Assembly (NCBI GenBank): GCA_019096065.1
Contig: JAGUCH010000001.1
Location: 248,001-312,000 of the forward strand
Direction of reading: 5' to 3'
Source of the DNA: Paracyclopina nana
Taxonomy: Eukaryota; Arthropoda; Copepoda; Cyclopoida; Cyclopettidae
DNA: 64,000 nucleotides
Shown: one piece after another, positions 40,002-60,135 of the stretch
Numbering within the stretch: the stretch's first letter is position 1
Layout: each line of letters starts with the position of its first letter
Notes under the pieces: generated by a model
Databases searched by the model: none
What the model saw: the letters and a program-made list of their open reading frames with translations, nothing else
What the model was told of the DNA's origin: nothing
Translations under genes and position numbers: made by a program

Positions 40002-42195
40002 ATGAAGGACAGCTATGCAATTCTGCAATTTTGGGCAATTTGGCCTTTTGCAACTGGTTTGTATCAAGAGATGTACCAAAGTGAATTGGTACATATGGAC
40101 TCTGTCAGTGGAGTTTCACCATCAAGGACTAAGGCGTACAAAATAACCATTTCAAATGCCAAAGCAGTGTTTAATACATGATTTAAATTCCAGAAGCCTT
40201 CAGGATTGTGCACAAGAATGTACGACATCTAAGGACTCTTGCAAAGGCTTCTTCTTGAGTCCTGATGAGTTTTGGGAGTGCAAGCACATTAGTGGAAAAA
40301 CTGAAGGCTTGGTTCAAACCTCACAAAAGAGCAGGAGAAAAGTAAAAGTGTACTTACCAGAGGCTGGCATAAATCTATACAAAAACTGTAAGGAAACAAA
40401 AAAATAATAACAAAAAATGTTGCATTGACTCTTTCAGATTCCCACTTCTTTATCATGAATCATTTGGGGCAGTTTGAGGATTTTAGTGATGATTCATTGG
40501 CTTCTCCTCCAATTGCATCCTACCCTACCAGCCATTCAGGTTTGAGTGGTGGATCTGCCCCTATTTGCATTCTGGAGAGAGATCGCAGCTTGACTTGCAT
40601 TGAGAAAAATGGAGGGCCAAGATTGTTTTCTTGGAACTTTGATGATCAGCCACCCCAATTGTTGCCAATTACCATTCGACAACATGGATTGTACCCATTG
40701 ACAGCCAGACAAAAAGGGAAAATGTTCGTTTTGGGAGGTGTTGGAGGTATGAGATTCACCCACGCTCATGTTCATTAAGCAATGTTCCTTGAAGTTAAGC
40801 GAGGCTCTATGGAAGCTGATTGCTCAGTGATTGTAGAGCTGACAAAGAACCAAACTGGATAGGACTCTTATGTTGGATTATCTATGGATGTGTAGCTAAT
40901 TTGGCTAAGACTCGAGGTGGCTAACTAGAGAACATTTATTGAAGCACGACAGCTTTGCTTTTAATAGTAGGAGCAAATGTCATTGTTCAATCAGCCTTCG
41001 ATCTGGATGAATTTTTGCATGACCAATGTCTAGGGTACTCATAAGAATTGTACCAGGCTTGGTGCCAATCGGCTCAGCAGTTATTGAGATATAGCCCTCC
41101 TAAGACCCTTGCTTATCAATATTGGAGCCTAGCTAGATGAATATGAGAATAGGATTTTATGAGCTAATCATGCTTTATTTTGAATAAAGGACAATCACTG
41201 ATTGATATTTATGAGGGTGGAAACATCACCAGCATCAGTACCCAACCACCTGGTGGCCTCTCTTCAGGATGTGCAGCTTTTTTGCCAGGAGATGATAATT
41301 TGGTCTATTTTGGGGGAGGCAACAACTTGGCATTTAGTGGAGGAAGAACTAGCAAATTCTGGACCTACAACATTGCTGGCGACTCATTTACTCCTCTGCC
41401 AGACATACCACATGGAGTTGTTGCAACGCAGGCTTGTGTAGGGGCTGTAACCAAAGCTGGAGAAAAGGTCATAGCTGAGTTTTTAGTCTGTTGCCAAGGC
41501 TTGAATGATGCTAAGCAAGGGTCTTAGAAGGATTATTATTCATTAACTACCCAAGCAATTGGCACCAAACACTGCACAATTACTTATAAAACCCTATTAA
41601 TTGTTCTTGCCAAAATTCATGCAGATTGAAGGCTGATTGGAGGAGATCAGTTTTTATGTTTTAAGCAAAGCAGCCTGACTTCACAATCTAAGTGGCCTCT
41701 AGCTAGTGACATATGGATCCCAACTAGATTTGGTACGCAGTCATAGATAGTTGCACTTAGGAATCCGGCCAAGTTTGATTACCAGTCAGCAAATCAATCA
41801 CTGAGCAATAAGCTTCCAATGAGCCTTGCTTAACTTCAAAGAACATTGCTTAATGAACATAAGCATGGGTTTTTATCATCATCACCTTTCCTCTCATCCT
41901 GCAGATCTTTGTGGTCATTGGTGGACGTTTTACCAATAGTGGTCCACCTGATCCTAGGGTGAGCAAGTATTCACCATCGACTCAAAGCTGGAGCTCAATG
42001 ACTCCATTGCCTGTAGCCAATTCTCAACCTAGTGCTGCCTTTTGGAAAGGATACATCTATGTATTTGGTGGAGTTGGCGCAAGTTCTCAAATGTCTACAG
42101 TTTGGAGAATGTTACCCGAAGACTTTGCTACTTGGGAAACAGTTGGCAGCTTATCCGGAGCTACTTACTACCCCATAGTTGTCCCCTATGCCTGA
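40002..42195 (+). CDS. secreted PAN/apple-like plus kelch protein K1
   Basis: Five exons: 40002-40135, 40194-40387, 40438-40746, 41190-41467 and 41905-42195, giving 401 aa with intron phases 2,1,1,0. These phases are shared by all five cluster members. The signal peptide is followed by ELVHMDSVSGV. Next comes a PAN/apple-type half-domain (CAQECTTSKDSCKGFF..C) ending with a Lys-rich VKVYLPE. The remainder reads as a kelch-like beta-propeller: ILGG/VLGG turns, KFWTYNIAGDSFTPLP, KYSPSTQSWSSMTPLP and GYIYVFGG. PAN modules bind protein or carbohydrate, and kelch propellers are binding platforms, so an extracellular lectin-like or adhesive role is inferred. Introns 3 and 4 (443 and 437 nt) are each filled by a MITE, whereas the paralogues have ~55-110-nt introns there. 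Confidence 0.82.
40765..41160. mobile_element. MITE family B in K1 intron 3
   Basis: Starts ctcatgttcattaagcaatg, and continues with cgatctggatgaatttttgc, gcttggtgccaatcggctca and gatgaatatgagaatagg. This is the same motif order as the copy at 10674. It occupies nearly the whole intron, leaving only the splice sites. Target duplications could not be assigned. Confidence 0.7.
41503..41875. mobile_element. MITE family B in K1 intron 4
   Basis: Opens ggcttgaatgatgctaagcaagg, then aattggcaccaaacactgc and aaattcatgcagattgaagg. It ends gccttgcttaacttcaaaga acattgctta and then aacataagcatggg. The terminal part holds the two-unit ancestor of the 20-bp satellite at 11.0-11.5 kb. Confidence 0.7.
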
Positions 42196-42752
42196 AATCA
42201 GCTTTAAATATTTTAAGACTACACTAAATGTACCAAATTCATTATATCAATCCTTTAGTTTAGCTCCAAACTTTGAAATTGCATTGACTATTTGCGGAAA
42301 TTTCACTCTTATCTCTCAACCCCAAGGTAAAAAAGCACTTTTTAGACACATCATCAAAGCACGAATCAGCCAGGAAACTCCATCAACATGTTCTTTAAAA
42401 CTTAATTAAAAAGGCTTATGTCATTGTTGCAAACACTTAATAAGCCATAGTATAGTGGCAAAAACTTCTTAACAACTGCTGAAGCATAGCCTTTTATGCT
42501 GAATTGAACAACTTTGGTTGTGTATTATTATTTTGGACTGGAAAATAAAATAAAATCATAATTTGATTCATGGCCTTTTATTAGTAAGTAGATTTCTCTA
42601 TGACAATTCAAAATTAATTGAGGTTGGATACATACATTACCTACTATAATAAAACGTGGAATGTATCTACTTTTTGTTGCACTCCAGTCAAACTATTAGG
42701 GAAGTCAATTTGGGGTTTATGAGTCTACACAGTAACTGCCTAGCCTTCAATC
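42196..42752. other. K1 3' UTR and K2 upstream region
   Basis: An aataaaataaaat cluster near 42541 is the likely K1 polyadenylation signal. A possible non-coding 5' exon of K2 would end at ggaat|gtatct (about 42661), by analogy with K3. Confidence 0.45.
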
Positions 42753-44148
42753 ATGGATATTCACTTTCTTATTGCCTTAATTCACATTTTTTTCATTTTA
42801 TCAATGGCTTGAAATTGGAGCAATATCAGACAAGAATTGTACACCAAGATTCTGTAAGAGGAGTCTTGGCAACCAAGACTAAATGGTAAACATGAGTTTT
42901 CAATGAATTCCAATCATATTCCATGCTTGAACATTTTTGTAGTAATCTGTTGGTTTGCGCTGCTCAGTGCTTATCCCAGCCAATTTGCAGGGGGTTCTAT
43001 GTCACTAATGATACTGATTGGTCTTGCAAGAGCATTCAAGATGAAGGTTTGGTTCCTGTAACCGCCAAAAGTCAGAGGAAGATGGAAGTTTTTGTACCAA
43101 CTATTGTCAAAAACCAATTTTGTACGTACCAGCTCATAGATGTATTGCACAAGGCTTACAAGTCATTCTTTATTTCAGATTCACACTTCATCGTCATAAG
43201 AGAAGATGGAGCCATTCAAGATTTTTCTGAAAAGGCTTCTGCTTCACCTCCAATCACCTCTTATTCATCAAGTCATCCAGATTTGAGTGCCTGGAGTCAA
43301 TGTATAATAGAAAAAGATGGCAGCATGACATGCATTGAGAAAAATGGTGGTGAAAAAATGTTCTCTTGGAACTTTGATAGTCAAGCCCCTTCATTGTTAG
43401 CAATTACCATTAGACGACATGGAGGCCTCGCTTTGACAGCACGGCAAAATAGTAAATTATTCATCTTAGGTGGTGGCATAGACGGATTAGGTAAACTAAA
43501 TCAAGTCAATGATGATCTTAAAATCTTTGACTCATATCTTTTAAAGCACATGGATTAATTGACATTTATGAGAATGGACAAGTGATAAGCATAAACTCAT
43601 CGGCACCAGATGTCTTCTATGCTGGGTGTGCTGCCTTTTTACCAGGCGATGACAATATTGTTTACTTTGGAGGAGGTTTTGATCCAGCGACTGGAATCAG
43701 GAAAGAAAAGTTTTGGACCTATGACATCACCAACGACTCTTTTACACCAATTCCAGACATTCCTACAGGTGGATTAGCAGATCCTGGTTGCGTAGGAGCA
43801 ATTACTTCAACTGGGGAGAAGGTGATTACACTACTGTAGCAATACTTTTTAAGGAGTTCATCTTTTTCTCAGATATTTGTGGTTTTGGGAGGGATTGGTC
43901 AGAGTGCTACTCAACTGTCAAGTGTATTCAAGTTTTCACCATCAACGCAAAGTTGGAGTCCAATGACACCTATGCCAGAGGTCAACTCCCACATGGGAGC
44001 AGTGTTTTGGAAAGGATACATATATGCCTTTGCAGGATTTGGGAAGTCATATGTCATCAAGATGTTACCAGAAGACGGTGCTCAATGGGTTGATGTTGGC
44101 AGCTTGAATGGAAATTCACAATATCCCACTGTTGTTCCCTATTCTTAA
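42753..44148 (+). CDS. secreted PAN/apple-like plus kelch protein K2, frameshift in signal exon
   Basis: Exons 42753-42885, 42943-43121, 43179-43490, 43547-43821 and 43873-44148. Exons 2-5 are intact and highly similar to K3, with the PAN motif LVCAAQCLSQPICRGFY, SDSHFIVIREDGAIQDFSE, then kelch turns ending GNSQYPTVVPYS. Exon 1 is 133 nt where the family needs a length of 3n+2. Compared with K3, one base is missing around the run of seven T at about 42788-42794. From the homologous ATG the frame stops after MDIHFLIALIHIFFILSMA. The downstream frame remains open from 42656 without an obvious signal peptide. It is either a recent pseudogene allele, a homopolymer sequencing error, or a gene using another start. 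Confidence 0.7.
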
Positions 44149-44586
44149 TCATCCTTTAATTTGCTGTGTATTGTTTTGCTCACATCTCTAGCTATTATAG
44201 AGCCACATTAGCTCAGAACGGAAAAATACATGCTTGGGCTTTGGCAAAAATTCATTGTGAAATAGGAGCTCTTTGGTGCACCCTTTAGAGACCTTGAAAT
44301 TAATAAAAATCACATCCACCTCATGACATGCTGCTGGTTTTTCAATTGCCTGGCTAATCTAATTTGAATCAAGTGGCTTTTTGTTTGACTTTAAAGCCTT
44401 GTTGGTAACTATGGACTCATTGAGCTTATTGATTAGTGTATATAAAGCTTGCAGTTCACATTCAGGACATAAATCCAGTGTGCCAATCGTAAAAACTTGG
44501 AATGTAAGCTTCTCTGTCCATGAATTTTATGATTGGAAAGGGCTAATTGGTTTTAGCATAGCCCAGTTATTGGCCAGGGTTCAATC
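44149..44586. other. K2 3' UTR and K3 promoter/5' UTR
   Basis: A K2 polyadenylation signal (aataaaaat) lies near 44301. A TATA box at 44439-44447 is listed separately. A 5' UTR intron from ggaat|gtaagc (about 44505) to ggccag just before the start codon is plausible. Confidence 0.45.
44439..44447 (+). promoter_or_regulatory. TATA box of K3
   Basis: TATATAAAG about 140 bp before the K3 start codon. The gap is bridged if the predicted 5' UTR intron is removed. Confidence 0.5.
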
Positions 44587-45987
44587 ATGCATGTTCATTT
44601 TCTCATCGCCTTACTTTACTATGCATTACACTTTACCAATGGGTTGAAATCAAAGCAATATCAGGCAATAATTGTTCACCAAGATTCTGTAAGAGGGGTC
44701 TCACCAATCAAATGGTAATTATGATTTTCAATGAAATTCAATTATTGTTATCGCCTCTTTGCTTGAACGCTTCTGCAGCAGTCTGCTGGTTTGTGCTGCT
44801 CAGTGCTTATCCCAGCCATTTTGCAAGGGTTTCTATGTCACGAATGAGACAGGTTGGTCTTGCAAGAGCATTCAAGATGAAGGTTTGGTTCCTGTTACAG
44901 CTAAAAGTCAGAAAATGGTAAAGGTTTTTGTACCAACTATTGTCAAAAACCAATTTTGTACGTACCAGCTCATAGATGCATTGCACAAGGCTTACAAGTC
45001 ATACTTAATTTCAGATTCACACTTCATTGTCATAAGAGAAGATGGAGCCATTCAAGACTTTTCTGAAATGGCTTCTGCTTCACCTCCAATCACAACTTAT
45101 CCCTCAAGTCATCTGGATTTGACAGGTGGGGATGCTTCTCCATGCATCCTTGAGAAAGGCGGCAGCATGACATGCATTGAAAAAAAGGGTGGTCAAAAAA
45201 TGCTATCCTGGAGCTTTGATGGTCAAGCCCCCTCATTATTATCGATTACCATGAGGCAACATGGACAATACCCCCTCTCAGCTTATCAAAATGGCAAGCT
45301 ATTCATCTTAGGAGGTCGTTTAGAAGGAATCGGTAAATTAACGTTTAGGTTTAAGACATCCTTGAAATGTCACTTATACTTAAAAGCACATGGCTTGATT
45401 GACATTTATGAGAATGGACAGGTAAGAAGCATAAGTACAGCAGCGCCAGATGGTCGCTATGCTGGCTGTGCTGCCTTTTTACCAAGGGAGGACAATATTG
45501 TTTACTTTGGAGGAGGTGTTGGTTCTGCTACAGGAGAAAGGATGGCTGATTTTTGGATGTACAACATCAATGCGGACATTTTCACAGCAATTCCAAATGT
45601 ACCAACAGGTGGGTTGGCAACCCAAGCTTGTGTAGGAGCTACAACCAACAGTGGCGAAAAGGTGACTCATGATTTGAATGATTATCTCAACTAAACAACT
45701 TGGCATATTAGATCTTTGTGGTTTTGGGTGGCTTGTTGCAAAATAGTACTGTACTGTCGAGTGTATTCAAGTTTTCACCATCAACGCAAAGTTGGAGTCC
45801 AATGACACCTATGCCAGAGGTCAACTCCCACTTGGGAGCAGTGTTTTGGAAAGGATACATATATGCCTTTGCAGGATTTGGGAAGTCATATGTCATAAAG
45901 ATGTTACCAGAAGACGGTGCTCAATGGGTTGATGTTGGCAGCTTGAATGGAAATTCACAATATCCCACTGTTGTTCCCTATTCTTAA
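44587..45987 (+). CDS. secreted PAN/apple-like plus kelch protein K3
   Basis: Five exons: 44587-44714, 44779-44957, 45015-45332, 45387-45661 and 45712-45987, encoding 391 aa. The signal peptide MHVHFLIALLYYALHFTNG leads to IIVHQDSVRGV. The PAN-like module follows (CSLLVCAAQCLSQPFCKGFYVTNETGWSCK, VPVTAKSQ, VKVFVP), then the kelch-like propeller (SITMRQHG, KLFILGG, NIVYFGGG, DFWMYNINADIF, KFSPSTQSWSPMTPMP, GYIYAFAGFGKS). Introns 2 (57 nt) and 3 (54 nt) are multiples of three and lack stops, so the frame reads straight through from exon 2 to exon 4, and retention of either would only insert 19 or 18 residues. Exon 5 is nearly identical to that of K2. Probably extracellular. Confidence 0.87.
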
Positions 45988-46487
45988 TCATGCTATGCTT
46001 GCTGCAAATCTTGAACTTCTCTTGTCTTTAGTTCTTTCCCAACAAAATCAAAATAAACCATTGTCTAAATTGGGTGACACTTCAAGAACATTTCATTAAA
46101 GCAAGGCACTCGGATCCAAATTAAGTCCTTGTAGAGGGAGTCTTCTTGTCTTCATTATTTGGGTTGGAGTGATTAATAGAGTATAAGAAATTAAAGCTTG
46201 CAAATAAGGCTTTGTAAGATTTGCATTCAGCTCCATAAGCTTTGCTGTAAGCTCAAATGTTGCAGTAAAAAAAAATGATTTGGCCAATGCCAATATGCTG
46301 ACAATATAATGAACAATTACTATGGCTAACTATTTTTTGAAAATGACTAAAATTGCAGCTTTTGCTAGTTTTTCACCCCTTGATGGCATTTTGTGCCACT
46401 GTGCCATAAAAAAAAGAGGAATGCCAAAGAATCAATTATTCAGAATTGGAAAACTTTTCTGCCAGTGTCTGGACAGCAATCAACATA
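45988..46487. other. K3 3' UTR and K4 upstream region
   Basis: aataaacc near 46051 is the likely K3 polyadenylation signal. No clear TATA box for K4 was seen. Confidence 0.45.
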
Positions 46488-47824
46488 ATGAAAGTCCTTT
46501 CAATTTTTGCCTTTTTCCCTCTACTATTGCCACCTTTGTCTGGTTTGCAGCTTGAGTTCTATGAATCAGAGATAGTGCACCAATATTCTGTAAGAGGAGT
46601 AACTCTTCACTTGCCCAAAAGGTAACCATAATAAATTATGAGTGCTTACTTTGGTTTAAAGCTGTTTCAATGATTGAGAAGGAGTGTGCAGTCTTGTGCA
46701 GCTAAATGCTTGTCCAAACCAGTTTGCAAAGGGTTCTATTTTTCCAATGCCACTGATGGGATGTGCAAGCAAATTCATGATGAAGGTCTGGTGGCCATCA
46801 CAGCCAAAAGTCAGAAAAAGATGAAAGTATTTGTGCCCAACATCAAGAGAAACCAACATTGTAATTTATTTGAAAAAAAAAAACTGAATTTATTATTATG
46901 TCTGTCTTCTATTTCTGGTAGATCCCCATTTCCTTGTCATTGATAACACTGGTTACATGGAGGACTTTTCAACAGATGCCTTGGCTTCGCCTCCCATAAG
47001 GACTTATCCGGAAAGCCAGGCTGACTTACGGGGAGGAGCAATGACTGGATGTGTCTTGGAGAAAGATGGCAGCTTGACATGCGTTGAGAAAAATGGAGGT
47101 CCTACATTGTTTTCTTGGAACTTTGATGATCAGCCACCCCAATTGTTACCAATTACCATGAGGTCACATGGAGGTTACTCACTCTCAGCGCATCAGAATG
47201 GCATAATGTTTGTCTTGGGTGGATCAGCAGGTAACGAATCAACAAGTTTGGAAACTGATTTTTTTTGTGAATTGTATGATTTACAATACGCTGTAATTAC
47301 TATTGCAAATTGAGCGTATCTTTTTGGTTTTTTTTCTTGAATAGGGAAGTCATTGCTGGATATTTATGAGAATGGACAGTTCCGGAGTAACAATTCAAAC
47401 CCTCCAGATCACCTTCATTCTGGTTGTGCTGCTTTTCTCCCAAGCGATGACAACTTGGTTTATTTTGGTGGTGGTCAATCTTCAGTTGATCACCGAAAGA
47501 CTAACAGGTTTTGGACGTACAATATTGCCAGAGATGCGTATGCTCAAATACCAAATATAACAAATGCTGGATTGGCCTCAATGGCTTGTGCAGGTGCTAC
47601 TTCAAGAACTGGAGAAGAGGTATGGAATCAATGGAGAGGTGAACTATATCATGTATAAAAAAATTAACTAGATCTTTGTGGTGATTGGTGGGATATTGGA
47701 GGGCCAAACAGGTCCGAAACCATATGTTTCAAAGTATTCCCCCTCAACTCAAAGTTGGAGCTCAATGACACCAATGGATGGAGGACTCTCTCATATGACA
47801 GCAGTCTTTTGGAAAGGATACATC

Positions 47825-47930
47825 TACCGATTGAGTCATCAAAACCGGGTAAGCGCTATGGCCAATTCGGCCGGTTTATTTAGTGCAGCAGTGCAGCCAG
47901 CGCATTGCGTTTCTCATGACTCAATCGGTA
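47825..47930. mobile_element. 106-bp MITE, mariner-like (TA target)
   Basis: Perfect 15-bp inverted termini including the TA: taccgattgagtcat on the left, and its reverse complement atgactcaatcggta at the right end. With TA as the target duplication the flanking K4 exon rejoins in frame to give GYIYVFGG, matching K1. The core is GC-richer, with gccaattcggccgg and cagcagtgcagccagcgc. The TA target suggests the Tc1/mariner group. Confidence 0.9.
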
Positions 47931-47945
47931 TGTATTTGGAGGGAG

Positions 47946-47976
47946 CCCCACAAACCAAAATTCGATTTTTTGAAAC
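47946..47976. repeat. left terminal inverted repeat
   Basis: Matches the reverse complement of 55598-55629 at the first 25 positions, then differs by one inserted base before tgaaac or gaaac. Confidence 0.9.
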
Positions 47977-48553
47977 AAAAAAAAGTACTAAATCTGGAGA
48001 TAATTATTGATACAAATCTCGCCTAATATCGCCTACTATTTGCCAAACTAGGAGATGAATTTAAGATTCATAGTAGTTAGGATCAATTAAATTATTACTT
48101 ATTTATCTCCAGATCTATGTAAGATTTCTAGGAGATGAATGGTTTAGTTGTTGGCATGTCTTGTAGCAAAAAATATCATCTAATAGACATTGCATAGGTC
48201 TGGCAATATCAAGATAAGAAAAATGAGATGTCAATAGTAATCTTTTTTCTTTAGGCGGAAACTATGAGACGATGCCACGGCAGTCATTTCTTGCAGCGGC
48301 CTTTTTTCGTCGCAGTGCGACCTTGATAGGCCTTTAGCAGCTTATGTGTTAAGGTGACTATGTGATGTTTTTATTGTACTAGCTAGTTGTTATTATCTTG
48401 AAATCAAGTTAACTAAGATATCATAATAATAAATGTCATTTTCACTGGAATGTTTCTTCTGTCTTTGACGTCGCAGTTGCTTGACTGATTGAAAGGCATG
48501 AATTCATTCAATCTGTGGCTGTCCTGTCAGTTCATGCATTGTCTGGTTGATAT

Positions 48554-51500
48554 CTACTTGTTGTTGCCATCAGAACCAGAATCAGAATCAGTGATGTATC
48601 CAGGAGGCAGGCTTTTGGAAGGGTCAAGGGCAACCTAGAGAGAAGATGTGTCAAAGTTATTTAACGCACTTTGGATAAGAGTTGATCGAGATAATTTGGC
48701 AAAAGGAATAAAGGTATGTAAATGTGATTGAAATGATAAAGAAGGTTTAGGTGGACTCACTGGTGGCGGTTGCAAGGTTTCGGCGGCTGCCTCGTCATCA
48801 TCCTCGTAGTCTGAGTCACGTAGGTCCACTTGTGGAGGCACCTGCTTTATGTAGGAATAAGCATGAGCAATCTACTAAACGTCAAAGTTGAATGCAGAAT
48901 AAGTGCATACCTGCTTGGTAGAAGGACCAGGTTTGGCTAAGTCATCAGCTTCACCAGTCAATGTGTCAAAACTTTTCTTCAAGTTTCTCTTGATGACGTT
49001 TCCAGAGCTTCTGCGCATAGGATTGGCACTTGCTCTTGGGGCGTCAATGTAAACTTCAGGCAAATACGCAACAGCATCAGCTGAGAACCTTTTGATCAAC
49101 ACGTTGATATCCGTCACCTCAGCAACAACCTCTCGGTAGATGTGTGGTAGCTATAAGTAAGACACATGATGCTATGATAGGTACGAGCTAGCCAGCTAGT
49201 AGTTATTGTGATAATATTACCATAGGTACTTTAGCCACGTAATCGAAGGTTAGGTTCCTCCAATCCTGATCCATAAGGTGAGCAGCTGCAATGATGTGAC
49301 GAAGGATCTCTTTGACGTCCAAGATTTCAAACTTGCACTTTTGAGACAAGTCTTTGAGAGCATCAGCTTTTTCTGGCAATGCCGACGTGTTGTTTTTGGA
49401 GTAGTCGTGGCCTTTCAGTTCTCCTCGCTTGATTTGCACTGCCAAGTGTGCGTCGTAGTCAGGAACAACAACTTTTGGCGGCAGCATGTGCTTATTATGT
49501 TGATAATACTCAAAGTCAGAGTTGGTGACAACCTCTGCTGCTTGTTGAAGGCTGATGGTGTTGTTGGCGGCGCAGTAGAGCATGCTTCCTCTGTCCGTTC
49601 CAAGAAGGGTCGAGATATAACTTTGAATGTCATAGGGATGGCGGCCTTCAGATGATCCCGTGATCTTATACATGTCATCGATTGCCGGCACAAGATAGTC
49701 GTCCATAATGCTATGCACGCCATCTGGGATGGGGCGCTTGTTGAAGCGAAGTCCCTTCAATGAGCTGCAATGCAATAGTCAATTATTTAGATAAATAGTT
49801 ATGAGACTTAATGAAGCTCCTTACTTAGCAATTTTCCCAAAGATAAGATGTGCCCTGGCTAGTGTTGTGAACAGAGTATTCATGCACGTCTTCCCCATGG
49901 TATTGTAAACCTCATTCAATGGCAAGCCTCTAAGGTGAGGGAAGATGAACGAGGACACTTGTTCCTATATGACAAAATGACGAATGTTTGTAATGCATAT
50001 GGTAAGAAGCACGTAAATCTTGCAATAATTAGGTTGTATCAATTTAAACATTTCATACCTGTACGAAGTGACATGCAAAATACACATCACAAGCTTGACC
50101 CATGAAGTTGAAGGGGAGGCAGCGGAACAAAATCAGCCTTGACTTTGCTCTTAAATCGAGATTGCCACGCATGTTCTTAGATGGGCTCGCCGACTGGTGA
50201 GAGACGTCTCCAAGTTTGACGTTCATTTCCTTCATTTGCTTCTTAACTTCCTGAAAAGTAATGGTGGATGTGGTTTGCATGTTACAATAGTTAGGCAAGC
50301 ATTTGATTTGTAATTAGATTTACATTGGAAAAGTAGGACTTACCAATACTGATGCAAACTTATTGTCCAATTTCTTGGACATCGCACTCTTATCCTTGAT
50401 CATCTCCTCGCGGAGCTCTTGAATCTCACTTGAGACATGAGCTTTTATGTCTTCAAAAAGCTTATTGAGCGCCTGGTCAAAGTACGCCTTATTGACGATG
50501 GTCAGGTTGTTGGGGTCAGAGATGTCCTTAAAGGATAAAGAAATATGTTTAAGCATGCTTAATGTCGAGTAAATATTGCAATAGTACCACGTAATACTCC
50601 TCAGCAACATCCACTGCAGCAGCAATGGGCGTACGGGCTGAAGATGGAGCAGACGAGCTAGCTGTCGACCCGCCAGCAACAGGGTTGAACGTGTAATTCA
50701 ATACATCGGCTGATTGCTCATCTTCATTTCCAGTAGCCATAAACGTGATGTTTTGGGAGCCGCTAAGAATGTTCGACGTTACAGTAGAAGTCGAGGGAGC
50801 AGTTGATGCGGCCGTAGAAACCTCCTTCTCATCGACTCCTCTTGAGGGTTGAGTGGTAGAGGTTTGGACTTTTGCCCTGGCAATCATTTCAGCAAAGGAT
50901 GTGTCAAGGTCGAGTTCACCAACTTCAGATGTCGATCTCTCAAGTGACGTTGAAGGTACTTCAGTCTCAGTTGTAGATGCTGACTTAGCCACTGGTGGCG
51001 GAGGCATCAACTCCTTATCCAAATTGGCAGCTGATTGAGCCAGCTTTTTGGCGGGTGTCTCAATAAGCTGTTGACCTTTTCTCTTGGTTCCAGCTTTCAC
51101 CGATCCTTGGGTAACAGCGACCTCAAAGTCGGAACTCTTGTAGGCCTCCGAGTCCGTCAGCAAGGCTGACTTACTTCCTTGCAGTGATTGTAGTCCAGAT
51201 CTAGTCTGAACACTCCAAGGAGTCCAATTCCATGAGCCGTCCGAAGCTCTCCTCTCGTAGTGGAATGCGGCCATGTACTTTTCAAACCAGGACCAGACCA
51301 TTCCATTGTATCCCGATAGGCGGTCCTCCTCATGAAATGATCCAATTTCATTGTTCAGCGTCTTTAAAGTAGCCATGACGCGAAAATCCTCAACATCTGA
51401 AAAAGTGCGTTCATTAGAGATGAATCGGCAAATATCTTTTGCATCCTTAAAGATCGAGTAGCTATTTCATGAATAAGTACCTTTTTCAACCCGCGTGAAC

Positions 51501-51730
51501 AAGCGAATGGCCTTCAGGCCTTCCTCAGTCTTGATTGGATAGGTCATTTTCCGAAAATCATCTTCGTATCGGCGAGTCAAAGCTTTGCCGATAAAGAACG
51601 ACAAAGAATGGCCGTCGGGCGATGTCCAATTCGAGTCGATGACTGAAAATACCGGCGTATCTTCAAGTGTGGCAACAATGAATCGATCGTACTCGCCAGG
51701 CTTCTTCTTTTCTTCCTTTCTTTCCCCCAT
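48554..51730 (-). CDS. transposon accessory protein (second EnSpm-type gene)
   Basis: Nine exons: 51481-51730, 50588-51396, 50344-50526, 50059-50250, 49825-49964, 49221-49764, 48911-49150, 48761-48844 and 48554-48634. All are in phase and total 840 aa. The N-terminal ~85 residues (DRFIVATLEDTPVFSVI..W) form a small mixed domain. Next is a basic stretch (KRKGQQLIETPAKK) and a long Ser/Thr/Pro-rich disordered region. A helical, probably coiled-coil segment (exon 3, ALNKLFEDIKAHVSSEIQEL) and a folded C-terminal half follow, before an acidic tail ending GSDGNNK. I recognise no catalytic motif. By analogy with the two-gene EnSpm/CACTA plan (TnpA-like plus TnpD-like proteins) a DNA-binding or transposase-partner role is inferred. 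Exon 8 has a tandem AAGCAG acceptor. Confidence 0.8.
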
Positions 51731-51908
51731 TTTCTAGGAATATCAATTTGGCGATCGTTTTTCGAGAATTGAAATTTAACGATTGATGAATTGGCGAGAA
51801 AAATAAATAATCCTCCTCTTTTTTTAACGGACAACCCGTTACACAAGTTTATTGCCTGGTCCACTCGATATCTAGTCTTTAACTATTTGTTGTGTTTATG
51901 TGATCACA

Positions 51909-51932
51909 GCGACTTTTTCCTGGAAAAGTCGC
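51909..51932. promoter_or_regulatory. hairpin in the bidirectional transposon promoter
   Basis: gcgactttt-6 nt-aaaagtcgc is a perfect 9-bp inverted repeat in the 282-bp gap between the two divergent start codons (51730 and 52013). It may be an operator or binding site for an element-encoded protein; that is inference from position. Confidence 0.4.
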
Positions 51933-52012
51933 GTCTCCACTAGCACACTTGACTATATGATTAAAGCTTAATAATTTAAGTAGTCAGAGCATTAGCATTA
52001 CTACAAGAAGTT

Positions 52013-54974
52013 ATGTCGATTTCCTTTTCCAGAAAAAGCGGCCATCGCTCGATCAGCGTCGGCAATTGTGCCAAAATGGCTCGCAGCAAAAATGGGGCGA
52101 AAAAACCCTGGAAGCCTGTTAATCGGAGAAAAGCGAATCGCATTTTGAAGAAAGTGGACCGTACTTTTAGTATGCTGAAAGCATCCATGTCCAATGAAGC
52201 CAAAGTCTTGAGAGAACTGCGCACTATTCGAAATGCGTAAGTGTTTCTTAATTATGGCGATAACTATCTCTTGTAATTGTTAGGCTAATTTCATACTTCT
52301 TTTCAGAGGTGAACCAGTTCCTGATGTCGACGTCTTTGCAGCGCCCGAGCGAATTGGGCAAATCAATCACCATTTGCAGCAAGTCAATGAGTGTCAGGAA
52401 GATATCTCGAAGGCATTGGAAGAAGAATTTCATTCTGACTACACCACCGACAGCTGTGATAGCTGCGTCATTGTTGATGTTCACCTAGGCAACAACGGCG
52501 ATGCTCCCCAAGGCCAAAACTTGTTGCCGTTGACTGAAGCTCTTCAGAATGAAGGGCCATCTACAAGTCTTGTCGTCAAGCAGCCCGACACTTCACGGAG
52601 CTCATTGCAGTCGCTCCTAGAGCAATCGGAAAAGGAGCCCAACATTAACTTGTCCCACAGCTACTCAATTTCTGGGTCAGATTTCTCACTTGGATCATTC
52701 AATCCTGACACCGAGGACAGCTACAATATTCCGCCGCAACTGTTGTCTTATCCAAGAGATACTTTGATCCGTGTGCGTGAGACTCATTCTCCTTCTAGTG
52801 GCGACAGCACGAATTATGACCCCGAGGCAAATACATCCAATGAGTTTGAAGATTTGGATTGCGCCGGCGTTATCTGGAGACAACAAATTGTTGACGAGGA
52901 GGAGCACATGTTTGAAGAAGCGTCAGCAGCGGCCGAGGGGGCAACTCCACAAAGACCTGGATTCCCTCATGGCGTACAATTAGGCGATCTTGTGCTTCAT
53001 GACTCGGACTCAGATGAAACAGACGAGGAGCAAGATTTGGCGAGCAAACTGGATGATTGCAACATTGGCGAAGCAGAAGAGCCAGTGGAGGTCAGTGGGA
53101 ATTCCTTGTTCTCTAATGGGTGCAATTTCACCTATGAAGAATTTCGAGAAATAGCCAGAAAGCAAGTCTCGCTCCCTGACATGGATGAACGGAACAGAGC
53201 CTTTTTTGAAGTGTTCCAATGTGTCGGCATCTGCAGCTACATGACGAAAACGTCCCAGAAGAGAATGTTTGATCTCATTCGTGCCTTCTTTCCTGAAAGA
53301 AATTTCAATAACTTTGAGACCTGCAAGAAACGGTACGCACTCTTCACACCCATCGTGACCATGAACTATGAGTTCAAGAAGATATCAACTGGTGAAATCA
53401 TCAAAGTAGAAGATGCCCGTTCCTTCCCCAGGAAAGAGTTCCCAAGAAGCGAGTACATCAAAATCTCTGAGTTTGCGTTTGTCTCCATTGATGAGGTCTG
53501 GAAACACTCAATGATGTGCCACAATGAAGTCAATTCTTATGTGCAAAGCAAGAAGATCATCTTGTTTATGGATGGCGTGCCCATGTCCAAGAGTGGCGAT
53601 GAGCAACTCAACGTCGTTAGTGTTCGTATTCCTCCTTGTCGCCATGTCTATGTGTTGGCCAAGCATGTGTACAGGAAAGAAAGTGGGCTCACTCCAAATA
53701 AGATTATGAAGTTCATCATTAGCGAGATCGACTACCACGGCTTCAAGATCAAGCGGATCGTAGCTGATGCACCTGTTCGTGCTAAACTAAAGGGATTGAA
53801 ACTTCACTCTGGATCTTGCTCTTGCGAATTTTGCTTTGCCAAAGGGGAGCGCTATGATGGGAAAACTGTTTTTCCGGCATCATCTTTCAAAAGCAACTTG
53901 AGAACAAACATGTGGTGGCATGAAACATCGGCCATGATTGAAGAGAGAGGCTTGGATCACTTCACTGCTGATGAGCTCATGGGACGCACAGCTGCAACTC
54001 CTGTTTCTCTACACAAAGAGTTGGACATGATGAGGGACTTCATTTTGGAACCCATGCACAATGTGTCTGGAGTCATCAAACAATTTCTGAGGCTGTCATT
54101 GAGATTGTCCAAGTCTTTCAAGAACTTTACTGCTCAACAGCAAAAGTACCTCAAGGCTTTTGATGCTCGTTGGCAGCTGATCAAGCTTCCAAGGGAGTAT
54201 AACCGCCGTTCCCGATCACTTTCTGGATGCTATGCTTTTCTCAAGAGCCAGGAGCTGATTTCGTTGGCAGTTGTGGCCCCTTTTGCTTTTGCAGAAGCCT
54301 TCCCTGGACCAGAGAATAAGAACGTCAGACGTGTGTGGCTTGCTTTCGCCTTGATCTTAAGATCTGTTTGTATGGACGATCAATGGTTTCTCCTCAACAA
54401 CGTCCGACACAGTTTGAGCAACAGATGCTACCTGGCCTACCAAGCTTTTGAAGAAACCTTTGGATTGACAAACTGCAGCTGGAACGTGCATAATTTTTTC
54501 ACGCACATTCTCCTTGCCAGAGACATCTCGCGACTTCCAGCCCTGAGCGCTTTGGGCTTTGAGGCGAACTTGAACACTGTCAAGAAATGGATGAAGTCCA
54601 ATACAACCTCCTTTCCGAAGCAGGTTATTGAGAAGTTATTTATTGGCAACACCATTGCACATGACTGCAGTTTGATCGTTCGGTTCAACAAGTTTGAGGC
54701 CTCAAGATTCTGCGACAATCTCTTCCACACAAATGACCAAGAGTTCTACAAGATTGTGGATATTCATGGCGATTATTATGAGGCTCAGAAGTTTAGGACT
54801 GCTAGGCATCACTCGGAGGACGCACCAAACACTGACTGGTCGTTGAATGGCATTGCTCTCAACAAAGGACTCATGGAAGAAGTAGTCAATGTTGACAAGA
54901 AGAAAGTCAATGGAAAGGCAACTATTGATGGACGTTACCTGGTGGCCATTCCCTTTGACGCTATGTTTATTTGA
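52013..54974 (+). CDS. EnSpm/CACTA-like transposase
   Basis: Two exons: 52013-52236 and 52307-54974, joined in phase 2, giving 963 aa. The N-terminus is basic (MARSKNGAKKPWKPVNRRKA), which suits nuclear targeting and DNA contact. A long acidic, Ser-rich linker follows. From about residue 355 the transposase core is recognisable: LFMDGVPMSKS, KRIVADAPVRAKLKGLKLHS, then CSCEFCFAKGERYDGKTVFP, a CxxC zinc-binding-like loop, and EPMHNVSGVIKQFL. These are the hallmark blocks of animal EnSpm-type transposases (DG.P..KS, VADAPAR, SC..C...G, MH). The Asp in FMDG and in VADAP are probable catalytic acids. No stop, frameshift or truncation is seen. It shares a short divergent promoter with the accessory gene. 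Confidence 0.85.
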
Positions 54975-55597
54975 ACATCTTAATCTATGTCGTATTGTGA
55001 TAAATACTTGATTAGTAATGTGATTTGTGAAGCACATTAGGCAGCATTATTTGTAATGTCGACAGCAGTTTTGTGCATCACTTTTTTGCCATTAAGGCTA
55101 ATGATAAGTGAATCAGAGGTAGAGTACCATTAAACGAAAATGTTTAAATAAACCATTTCATGTTTCTTGCGACAACAATGACTTTTTCTTTCATTACTTT
55201 TATTTGCTAACGTTGAAACGAAACTTTAATTTAATTACACTAATTCGCACTTACATGTTTGCGCACATGCGCTCGCACGCTCATGAGACACTTGTCAACC
55301 ACATAAGTACTCTTTACTCCCAATTCTGGAGATGACAATGAGACAATTAGATGCGAAATTCTTTAATGCCCAACAAATTGAAAAATTTATTTGCCTTGGG
55401 AGAACTATTAATATAAATCAACTAGAATCTGAAAAAGCTAAAGTTGAAAATGTTATTGAGATAACTAGAAGATGATTACGTCATCTAATAATTAATGAAG
55501 TATTATTAACATGGCAACTACTAGTTCACTCCAGATTGTCGAGTATTTTCTAACTTTTTTAAAAATTCGAAAACTAGGTGCTATCACGAGATATATA

Positions 55598-55629
55598 GTT
55601 TCAGAAAAATCGAATTTTGGTTTGTGGGG
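55598..55629. repeat. right terminal inverted repeat
   Basis: gtttcagaaaaatcgaattt then tggtttgtgggg, the inverse of the left terminus. K4 coding sequence resumes directly after it (agctcaggaacaggtgg). Confidence 0.9.
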
Positions 55630-55755
55630 AGCTCAGGAACAGGTGGATATGTATATTCAGTCAAGAGAATGCTACCAGAAAACTATGCAGTTTGGGAAGA
55701 TGTTGGCAAATTGAAAAGAAACACTATTTACCCAATTGTTGTTCCATACTTCTAA

Positions 55756-58736
55756 CATTATCAATTGTGATGTATGTCAAGTATCCAATTTATAAACATG
55801 CTTCAGTTTGAAATGAACTTGGCAGGATTGTCAAATTTAATTTTGAACAACTACAGATAGTCACATCTTTGGTTCATTGCTCTGTGTCTTCTAAATTGCA
55901 AACAAAATTACAAATTCAACAAAAAATCAAAACTCCTTATCTAAGTCTTGAGGTCACTATTTTTTGAAACCTCAACTCAATAAAACCTCTTGCAGCAATT
56001 TATTTGCAATACTTTTGAAAGGTATAATGCTGATTCACATTTTGCAATGGTTAAGGCTAATAAAGAGCTAATAAAGAGATCCTTTTAATAGTGTTGATGG
56101 GTTGTCTGCTCATTGATGCAATTCATTCTTTGCTTTTTTGGACTATTTTTTAGCCTAGTAAATTTTTTGATCTGGGGTTTGGTGTGGTATGATGCTGTTT
56201 TTTGTATGTAAACAATCTGCTATATAGATTGTTCAGAGTGCCCTTGAAGCAGTCTGACCTTGGATGTCCACTGAGCCATGATGCCATAATTGACTTGCAC
56301 ACTGAGGGAAAATCAAATAAAAGAGGACTTAGTAAAATTTTCTTGGGGAAAAAGTCATAGCCTATTTTTTGCTTACCCTTTAAAAGTACATGTCTTTGTT
56401 CTTTGGTGAGGCTTCAATATTTCCAACAGTGCTCCACATGTGCAGTTCAGAGCAAGTTTTGGAGACTTTAAACCAGTACCATGTTGAAAATTGCCTACAC
56501 AAGAAGTCCTTGTTCAAGGAAGACTCTGTGTAGCAATGGTGTTAGCTCTAATTGCTTCCACACCAAACAGTTTCCCATTGGCTAGGAATTGCCTGACATG
56601 GGCCTTAGAAAACAAGGCCTAGGGTCTTACCCCAAAAAGGCAGCTGGCCCTTGTGGTCTTCTGCCCAGTCGCAAGTCTTCCAATGGAGTAACCACTGTGG
56701 TCATAAGACTTCTCGGGTGAGCTAATCACACTCATAATTATTAAATTATCTTTTACACCTTACTACAATTAAACCAAAAGTAGATGTAAATAGTCATTTT
56801 TTTTACTCTTGAACTAAATGATTAAATTGACATTTTTGACTTGACTTTAGAAATTATACTGTTTTGGGTATTTATGATGATTTTAATACATTCTTGATTT
56901 CTTTGGCTTGCAGCATTTTTCGGATTGGTAGTCTGTCCACTTCTTAGAGAAGATGAAATGCCTCTCTGAACTAGGTTGAGATCAGCTATTTGGCCATGGG
57001 CCTTGAACAAGCAAAGGAAGAAGCATTCAAAATGGCCAAGTCACCAAACTTTGCCAATTTGATGGCTGGATGACCTATTAGCTGAAACTAGACACTTACC
57101 AAAAAGTGAATGCTACTGCACTGATAGAGATCATGGAATGAACAATGGAAGCACCAAGGAATTGAGAGAAAAACTCACAGTTCCAGAGATGCCCAGGAAT
57201 TAACAAATGATGATCAGGAAACAGCCCTGGAATCAATAGATGGAAGCAGAACAAGAAACTGAGGTGAAATCACCTTAGTAAGTTACTAATGATGATGATT
57301 ATGCTAGGTGGTTAATGCACCTATGATGCATGATATTGATTATATTGGAAATTCCCAGTGGACTCCCCAAATGTTGAAAAAAAAAAACCTGGAGCCCCTT
57401 CAGGAATTGAGAAAATGAATACAGATCAGGAAACTCTGATTGTAAACCAATACTTGGATGAAAACAGAGAAGAAACCTTGGAAAACTGTAATTGAGAATT
57501 ACTAGGCATGACCTAGGAGTAGAACACTGAAGTGAAACCTGGAAATCATCTGCAGCAAGCAGCCAGGAACCAGGAAATTGACTAAGGAAAACTGCACCAG
57601 TTATCAACAAACGATAACAGAGCATAAAACTGAGTTTGGAACACACCTTGGAAAACTGGAAATGACCATAGGTGTATCCACCAATGACAGCTGAAACAAT
57701 ACTGAATTACCACCTGCTATGCAATGGAATTAAAAGCCTCAGCAACTTATGAATGACAGATTTGAAGTGCTTTTAAGGGAGAAACACCTTTTTAAAGCGT
57801 AATCTTACAAGGCTTCAGATAAATGATTCAATTGTGAAAAACAGATCTGAATAAAAAATATCATTGAGTCTGAATCAAAGAGTTGGTAATTTAATGCAAT
57901 GCAATGATCAAAGGGTAGAAATTCATGACCAATATGTAAGGATGAAAGTAGGTTGAATCTAATCTATCTAATCTCTGAATTCTAACTCAATAAATATGTA
58001 TCCTATATCTATATTTCAAGCTCTTAAAATTAAGCTTTTTAATTGCATTAATACCTAAGTTTTATACATATATCTGCAAAATGTACTGCATTACTGATTT
58101 TATGACTTTTGGGGCCAAAATTGTGAAAGGCTGAATGCCAAAATGAAATATTAATGAATGAGAGCAACCAAATTGAGTTCAACGTTAATATATCCATATC
58201 AAATTCTTTCTACAAAGACTATTACAACTTCAATTTTTGGCTTTGGCTCAAGAACCAATTTTAAAGGTTTCCCAAAAGGTTTCATGATCAGGCTGTAAAA
58301 AATCACTTAACTAATCAATTCCAGTTTTTGGCCAAATGAATACAGTAGCTCAAAAAAATTAAACTAAACTTTAAGGAAAATGTCCTAAAAAACTGGCTTT
58401 AATTCAACATAAACGTTACAAGTCTGAGTTAAGCATAATGTACTCCAGGTTATCAAAAAAGTGTGCTATGTCATTTTGCAATCTAGGCTGTTGATCAATT
58501 ATTAATATTGGGAAATGAAACTGGGATTGGTTGACTTTAGTGGCTGACCATTTTTCTCAACCATGAAGCACAAGCTCATTTTGTAGTTGAATGAATTACT
58601 AACTAGACCTTTTTGAAAGGCTTTCTCAAACATGGCCCAAATTTTCTCATAATAACACTTTTCAATAATTGGATTTCAGGAATTCTAGAGAAGGCAGTTA
58701 CTGAATATCATACTATGGCAATAGAAGTCCTTGAAC
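55756..58736. other. intergenic spacer between K4 and K5
   Basis: No gene is supported. From about 57100 to 57660 the sequence is unusually rich in gaaact, ggaaa and caggaa words, suggestive of a very degenerate tandem repeat with no fixed period. Nothing else was recognised. Confidence 0.5.
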
Positions 58737-60135
58737 ATGCCATTCATATCTACATACTTGTTTTGTGGGACATTCCCCTTGATTCTGGGCTTGCAGCTTG
58801 AGCTATATCAGCCTGAGTTGGTGCACCAGGACTCAGTCAGAGGAATCACATCACCTCCATTTGTCAAAGGGCAAGCATAATAAAGCACACTTTGCATAGG
58901 CATCTTTGACTTAAGTCTTCTTGCTAGTGATCTTCAAGCTTGTGCTGCTCAATGTAAAACTAGGGCAGATTGCAACGGATTCTTCTTTGCTTTCAATGAA
59001 ACTTGGGCTTGCAAGCTCATCAATGAGCAAGGAATGGTTCCAATCACTCAGAAAAGCCAGAAGAAAATGAAAGTTTACGTCCCAAAGATAAAGCAAAACA
59101 AACATTGTACGTAACCTGATCTGGACTTGAATCGTTGTGAAACTTGTCATTTCTAGATTCCCATTTTTTTGTCATGAATGAGTTTGGCTACTTTGAGGAC
59201 TTCAGCGAAGATGCTCTAGCTTCTCCTCCCATTACAACTTACCCACCAAACCATCCAGCCTTGAGAGGTGGAACTGGATCTCCATGCATTCCGGAGAAAG
59301 ATGGCAGTTTGACATGCATCGAAAAGGGCGGTGGCCAAAAAATGTTTTCATGGAGCTTTGATAGTCAGTTGCCTCAATTGTTACCAATGTCCATACGTCA
59401 ACATGGGCACTATCCGCTGACGGCATGGCAGAATGGAAAGTTGTTCATCTTTGGAGGGATTGTAGGTACTACCTAAAGCAATGACAGATGCATTGTCGCT
59501 GATTGTATTTTGTATATGCACAAAGGAAAGAAGTTGCTAGATATTTATGAGAATGGCACAGTAGTCAGTATCAACACAGAGCCGCCAGATGGCCTGGCTG
59601 CTGGTTGTGCTGCCTTTTTGCCAGGTGATGATAACCTGGTATACTTTGGGGGAGGTGACAGCGAAACTTTGAAAGCAAGGACAAGTAAATTCTGGACTTA
59701 TGACATTGCCAATGCTGCCTTTTCTCCAATTCAAGACATACCAACAGGTGGATTGGCAACGCATGCTTGCACAGGAGCAACAACCAAAAGTGGAGAGAAG
59801 GTGCATGCAAGTGGAAATTGAACGACAACTCATTTAATCACTAGCTCATTGTTTTCCAGATCTTTGTGGTAATTGGAGGAGTGCTTCAAAGTGGAGCAGA
59901 GTTGGCAACTGTATCCAAATATTCACCCTTGACTCAAACTTGGAGTCCCATGACTCCATTGAGTGCATCCCAATCTCACTCTGGGGCTGTTTTTTGGAAA
60001 GGACATATCTACTTATTTGCAGGGGCTGGCCACAGATCAGTGAAAAGAATGTTACCAGAAGATTCTGCCTTATGGGAAAATGTTGGCGGCTTGAACAGAG
60101 TCTCGATATTTCCAATCATTATTCCATATTCATAA
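58737..60135 (+). CDS. secreted PAN/apple-like plus kelch protein K5
   Basis: Five exons: 58737-58870, 58928-59106, 59157-59465, 59526-59800 and 59860-60135, encoding 390 aa. Exon 1 ends AAAGG|GCAAGC. Only this GC donor gives the 134-nt length and phase seen in K1 and K4, so a GC-AG intron is well supported. The signal peptide MPFISTYLFCGTFPLILG precedes ELVHQDSVRGITSPP. The PAN-like module is LQACAAQCKTRADCNGFFF..CKLINEQG, ending MKVYVPK. The propeller follows with SWSFDSQLPQLLPMSIRQHG, KLFIFGG, NLVYFGGGD, KFWTYDIANAAF, KYSPLTQTWSPMTPL and RMLPEDSALWENVGGL. It is an intact member and is separated from the rest of the cluster by the transposon and 3 kb of spacer. Confidence 0.85.

Follow-up and report, generated by a model that had tools for sequence, protein, structure and literature searches.

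The closest described systems to the locus analysed here are the CACTA-related TRC elements of animals, SmTRC1 of Schistosoma mansoni and its counterparts in Tribolium and Aedes, which have CCC ends and 2-bp target-site duplications (TSDs), the latter present in 7 of 14 SmTRC1 copies (PMC1636069). A TNPA-like role for the second protein of TRC elements was only supposed by the authors who described them (PMC1636069). In plants, full-length CACTA elements consist of two open reading frames (ORFs), the transposase and ORF2 (PMC4158355), and in maize En/Spm the protein TNPA, which binds subterminal repeats, is required together with TNPD (PMC2613891). More broadly, the CMCT clade covers Mirage, Chapaev, Transib, ESTA, Plavaka and RAG1 (PMC12730594, PMC4914335). 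Here we analyse a stretch of 64,000 nucleotides from the copepod Paracyclopina nana (C1:248001-312000 of a 92-Mb genome in 10 contigs; hereafter the window), in which positions 47946..55629 (7684 bp, no strand assigned) are an apparently complete, structurally intact cut-and-paste DNA transposon with two divergent genes, one for a transposase and one for an accessory, or partner, protein. CACTA-type elements themselves are already known; what is new is the conserved divergent partner family.

The limits of the element are set by a pair of terminal inverted repeats (TIRs), a TSD and a second full copy. The left TIR (47946..47970, plus strand, CCCCACAAACCAAAATTCGATTTTT) and the right TIR (55605..55629, minus strand) are 25 bp long, start with CCCCAC and are complementary at 25 of 25 positions, in keeping with the matching termini reported in the original prediction, which had been made from the sequence alone. 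They are flanked on the left (47944..47945) and on the right (55630..55631) by the same 2-bp TSD, AG. When the genome was searched for the 25-bp end sequence with up to three mismatches, four occurrences were found, corresponding to both ends of two copies, while the control pattern, the same sequence read backwards, had none. The second full copy (C4:1990828-1998534, 7,707 bp), which bears out the expectation of further copies with shared termini, carries exactly the same 25-bp ends, lies in other flanking sequence with AT as its TSD, and retains an intact transposase frame. Between the two copies there are 82 substitutions over 7,680 aligned bases (1.07%).

Similar termini recur in related elements. 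An inverted pair of CCCCAC ends was found in 10 of 16 two-gene stretches examined, all ten with a 2-bp TSD (AG, AT, AT, TT, TC, TA, CA, TA, TA and AT; that of C3:3541860-3549352 is TC/TC), and since two pairs among the ten elements are twins, these represent eight lineages. Non-autonomous relatives with similar ends comprise two of 1.2 kb, at C9:661034-662237 (TSD CT/CT) and C4:2067388-2068589 (no TSD), and a longer one at C3:2977381-2979628. In the non-autonomous L005 (C3:2975881-2979079), two pieces matching L004 lie about 1 kb further apart, which suggests an additional insertion in this element.

The transposase gene lies on the plus strand and is modelled with two exons, the first at 52013..52236, where the choice of start codon is uncertain, and the second at 52307..54974, which holds the catalytic core and ends with the stop codon. 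The exons are in phase, their junction is GT/AG and the only stop is terminal, so the 963-aa model given in the original prediction stands. A six-frame genome search for relatives, in which 51 of 236 candidates were scored, gave 52 listed matches, 49 of them without a stop inside the match. Of 30 transposase ORFs, 22 were aligned, the omitted ones being seven near-identical twins and one broken ORF. All 22 keep D430, D495, C514, C517, H736, H741 and E760 (numbering of the window ORF 52284-54971), an invariant catalytic and zinc core that occupies 53571..54563 on the plus strand (codons at 53571, 53766, 53823, 53832, 54489, 54504 and 54561, respectively), with D-to-C and H-to-E distances of 19 residues each and C-x2-C and H-x3-4-H spacing. 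In the spliced protein the catalytic residues are D497, D562 and E827. The arrangement D-D-CxxC-H(3-4)H-E is the signature of the CACTA/EnSpm-Mirage-Chapaev-Transib (CMC) clade. When the family was aligned with hhalign to a generic animal EnSpm core, the probability was 98.6% and D, D, CxxC and MH were paired with their counterparts; as this core is a generic sequence and not a database record, the result is support rather than proof. A genome search with the same generic core listed 150 of its 153 matches, 105 of the 150 lying in open frames of at least 600 aa. This 92-Mb genome, the one searched with this core, looks like a host of many intact, diverse CMC-type transposase genes.

The accessory gene is divergently oriented on the minus strand, where nine exons can be followed from 51730 to 48554 with GT/AG junctions, in phase and with no internal stop. 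Exon 1, with the ATG, lies at 51481..51730 and is followed by exon 2 (50591..51396), exon 3 (50344..50526), exons 4 (50059..50250) and 5 (49825..49964), both conserved between families, exon 6 (49221..49764), whose 181 aa draw the most matches from other elements, exon 7 (48911..49150), exon 8 (48761..48841) and exon 9 (48554..48634), which includes the stop codon. The nine in-phase, stop-free exons agree with the original prediction, although the protein measures 838 aa in our model rather than 840. Of the 13 loci aligned over exon 6, 12 begin with its first residue and every one finishes at its end, and these boundaries support the modelled splice sites. The two start codons are separated by a gap of 282 bp (51731..52012, no strand), presumed from its position to be a shared promoter. 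An accessory relative, L043 (C1:11288172-11292980), can be matched over residues 88-706 within a single open frame and is apparently intronless there, which implies intron loss or gain between families.

This pairing of genes is not peculiar to the window. In a genome search for accessory relatives, with 54 of 425 candidates scored, 92 exon matches were listed, and for 32 of the 52 listed transposase matches an accessory match lies upstream, in divergent orientation, at no more than 8 kb; these 32 include several twins and two pieces of a single gene. Same-strand accessory matches within 10 kb were seen for none of the 52. Conversely, 81 of the 92 listed accessory matches are explained by divergent pairing, and the other 11 fall in six places without a listed transposase (C4:4581969, C2:14813810, C1:12847944, C9:4093589, C7:1828822 and C1:15939044). 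These may be solo or domesticated partner genes, or may adjoin transposases below the scoring cut; at one of them, C4:4581969-4582945, a short match to the generic EnSpm core lies 2 kb away (C4:4584915). When distances between transposases were compared with those between the corresponding accessory proteins, the Mantel correlation was 0.952 for 12 elements, a value reached in none of 20,000 permutations; the 12 were drawn from 13 accessory rows, and three of the pairs borrow one partner from a near-identical twin copy. The partner family is conserved across 12 or more distinct elements that are not twins and, as the correlated distances indicate, is co-inherited with the transposase. We found no description of this family in the portions of the literature searched, a result that does not rule out an earlier publication. 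The original prediction could not assign the partner to a family, and there is still no convincing family match in Pfam or PDB; what changes is that the protein is not an isolated one, being common to many related elements.

Comparison of the two full copies yielded dN/dS values of 0.40 for the transposase and 0.24 for the accessory gene. With both genes pooled, 24 synonymous and 28 non-synonymous differences, set against 21.6% synonymous sites (p = 7e-5), support purifying selection on the two genes together. Six sister pairs of related elements are 99.3-99.98% identical over the shared transposase-side stretch, and on the accessory side the values for three sister pairs are 99.88, 99.97 and 98.89%. 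Given such near-identical pairs, the wider lineage has probably moved recently. These figures, together with the 1.07% divergence of the sole other full copy found, fit the original view of the element as young. With both frames intact, the window copy may be autonomous.

The element interrupts a coding exon of a kelch-repeat gene, one member of a local kelch-repeat cluster (window 41986-60129; C1:289986-308129). The same exon holds a 102-bp inverted-repeat insert (47827-47928) with a TA/TA duplication, 17 bp from the transposon, and the kelch frame reads through once the element, one TSD copy and this insert are removed. Matches to residues 1-69 of the resulting junction peptide occur at ten further genomic sites, all stop-free and 43-61% identical, and four of these sites belong to the same cluster. 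The insert itself is probably a very young miniature element; 40 genome matches at 95-100% identity, itself included, are listed for it (40 of 82 candidates scored).

When set beside the published systems, the family resembles TRC elements in its CCC ends, 2-bp TSDs, two Asp residues with CxxC and more than one encoded protein (PMC1636069). It departs from them in the distance between the two Asp residues, 65-66 here versus 80 in TRC, and in its second protein, which has a divergent gene of its own where TRC elements use alternative splicing, and which is conserved between element lineages, whereas SmTRC-PrA and SmTRC-PrB are described as having no relatives in other TRC elements (PMC1636069). 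Spongebob (EnSpm-4N1_HM; Hydra and insects), likewise an animal TRC/CACTA element, shares the CCC ends and 2-bp TSD, but its authors report that the exact transposase was not found (stops or frameshifts), and we noted no partner gene for it (PMC4298943). With plant CACTA elements the family shares the combination of a DDE (Asp-Asp-Glu) transposase and a second element-encoded protein (PMC2613891, PMC4158355). The plant elements have CACTA ends, a 3-bp TSD and repeated subterminal motifs, in contrast to CCCCAC, 2 bp and no repeats above chance here, and Spm produces tnpA and tnpD from one transcription unit (PMC1636069) rather than from two divergent genes. The C(2)C and H(3-4)H motifs between the second D and the last E, and a TSD within the range of 2-5 bp, are CMCT features, although most CMCT ends are 5'-CA..TG-3' (optional in the source) and those found here are CCCCAC..GTGGGG (PMC12730594). 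The spacing is close to that of mouse RAG1 (D600, D708, C727, C730, H937, H942 and E962), with a D-to-C distance of 19 in both and an H-to-E distance of 19 here versus 20 in RAG1 (PMC4914335).

We consider it probable that the element is a CACTA-related (TRC/EnSpm) cut-and-paste transposon of the CMC clade whose transposase works with the divergent partner as its co-factor. In this scheme the 963-aa DDE enzyme, which carries the CxxC/H(3-4)H zinc module, would cut at the CCCCAC ends and join the element into a target staggered by 2 bp. The 838-aa partner, probably driven from the shared 282-bp spacer, would assist it, most likely in end recognition or synapsis, much as TNPA assists TNPD in the En/Spm system of maize. 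The short non-autonomous relatives, whose ends are similar, would depend on related elements for their mobilisation in trans. Several results weigh against this account. The CCCCAC end pair (at least 13 exact bases) was not found in 6 of the 16 two-gene stretches examined. Subterminal repeats, which the original prediction had listed, did not exceed dinucleotide shuffles in top k-mer count (reached by 74, 75, 181, 55 and 194 of 200 shuffles for k = 6, 7, 8, 9 and 10), and the motif GGAGAT, chosen post hoc, has a subterminal-to-internal ratio of 5:1 in both the window element and the C4 copy, a bias not kept in eight relatives (3:4, 2:5, 5:6 and, in the remaining five, no subterminal occurrence). 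Structure prediction from single sequences, which the original prediction had proposed for the accessory protein, was unusable both for exon 6 alone and for the transposase core (mean predicted local distance difference test scores of 33.9 and 34.7). The accessory protein has no convincing Pfam or PDB relative and no recognised DNA-binding domain above the Pfam cut-off; its sub-threshold leads, which include ORC6 (E 0.064), Tricorn_C1 (best E 0.0018, 2 of 13 members) and Myb_DNA-bind_7 (E 0.06, 1 of 13), are taken as chance. As there is neither such a domain nor an excess of subterminal repeats, the partner's role is one that we infer.

The lack of a DNA-binding domain would equally suit a CMC transposon whose partner is dispensable for transposition and instead regulates expression, counters host silencing or performs some other service, as would two further observations that sit uneasily with a required co-factor: 20 of the 52 listed transposase matches have no nearby accessory match, and a 4-bp deletion and a substitution that creates a stop have broken the accessory gene of the C4 copy, whose transposase frame is still intact. 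We regard a dispensable partner as doubtful. The tight co-inheritance and the dN/dS of 0.24 suggest that the accessory protein matters for the spread of the element, and all 20 unpaired transposases are just 30-42% identical to that of the window, so that their accessories may be too divergent to be detected. It is similarly unlikely, in our judgement, that the lineage belongs with Mirage, or forms a CMC branch of its own, instead of grouping with EnSpm/TRC. Placement there would be consistent with the departures from TRC in the transposase, since Transposase_21 (PF02992) matched none of the 22 members at E up to 1 and the strict TRC box A (L/V/I-D-x-L/M-H-x3-L-G) is absent from all 22, a looser form ([LVI][DE].[LM]H...?G, always of PMHN type) occurring in 17. 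Among the Pfam leads over the core, DUF1258 alone points to a transposase; it is described as the Mirage group, near Transposase_21 (PMC3985635), and in one of 22 members (L031) it matches residues 504-544, covering that member's second D and CxxC, at E 0.013 and 15.5 bits, below the cut-off of 33.1; the remaining sub-threshold leads, unrelated to transposases, are taken as chance. CCC ends and 2-bp TSDs are, however, published TRC features, and the profile alignment to the generic EnSpm-type core also speaks for the latter grouping.

Pfam gave no family for the window transposase or its 21 aligned relatives, which marks the transposase family as divergent; PDB profile searches returned chance-level matches only (best E 5.4 and 1.4), no relative was found in IMG/VR, and searching the genome with the PF02992 and PF06869 profiles gave nothing, a result that is uninformative because none of the 14 control genomes gave a match either. 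The original prediction had called for a search against EnSpm transposase profiles and taken the lack of a hit as counter-evidence; in Pfam there was none. Its EnSpm/CACTA-like assignment holds for the broad class, through the D-D-CxxC-H(3-4)H-E signature, CCC ends, 2-bp TSDs and the alignment to the generic EnSpm core. That the window copy is dead or domesticated and merely looks intact we think improbable: only two full copies of the family were found, but the frames are intact, the TIRs perfect and the TSD present, the element interrupts a coding exon, and the six sister pairs are nearly identical on the transposase side. A PIF/Harbinger-type transposon, likewise a two-protein system with one accessory gene in general outline, was rejected on the catalytic signature and the TSD and has a negligible chance of being correct. 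Harbinger TSDs are 3 bp long, those found here are 2 bp and varied in sequence, and no Harbinger family appeared among the Pfam matches.

A further-reaching version of the co-factor account can be put forward tentatively, namely that this is an undescribed CMC lineage in which a new, conserved co-transposase is required for transposition, its divergent multi-exon gene having stayed with that of the transposase while the elements diversified deeply inside a single compact genome. In the TRC paper (PMC1636069), the second protein of CACTA-related elements in animals was left as an open point, and a partner family present in at least 12 non-twin elements provides alignment depth for fold prediction and for tests of its role. 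If the partner proves to be an obligate co-factor, CACTA elements of different kingdoms would have in common a two-protein logic in which the second proteins are unrelated.
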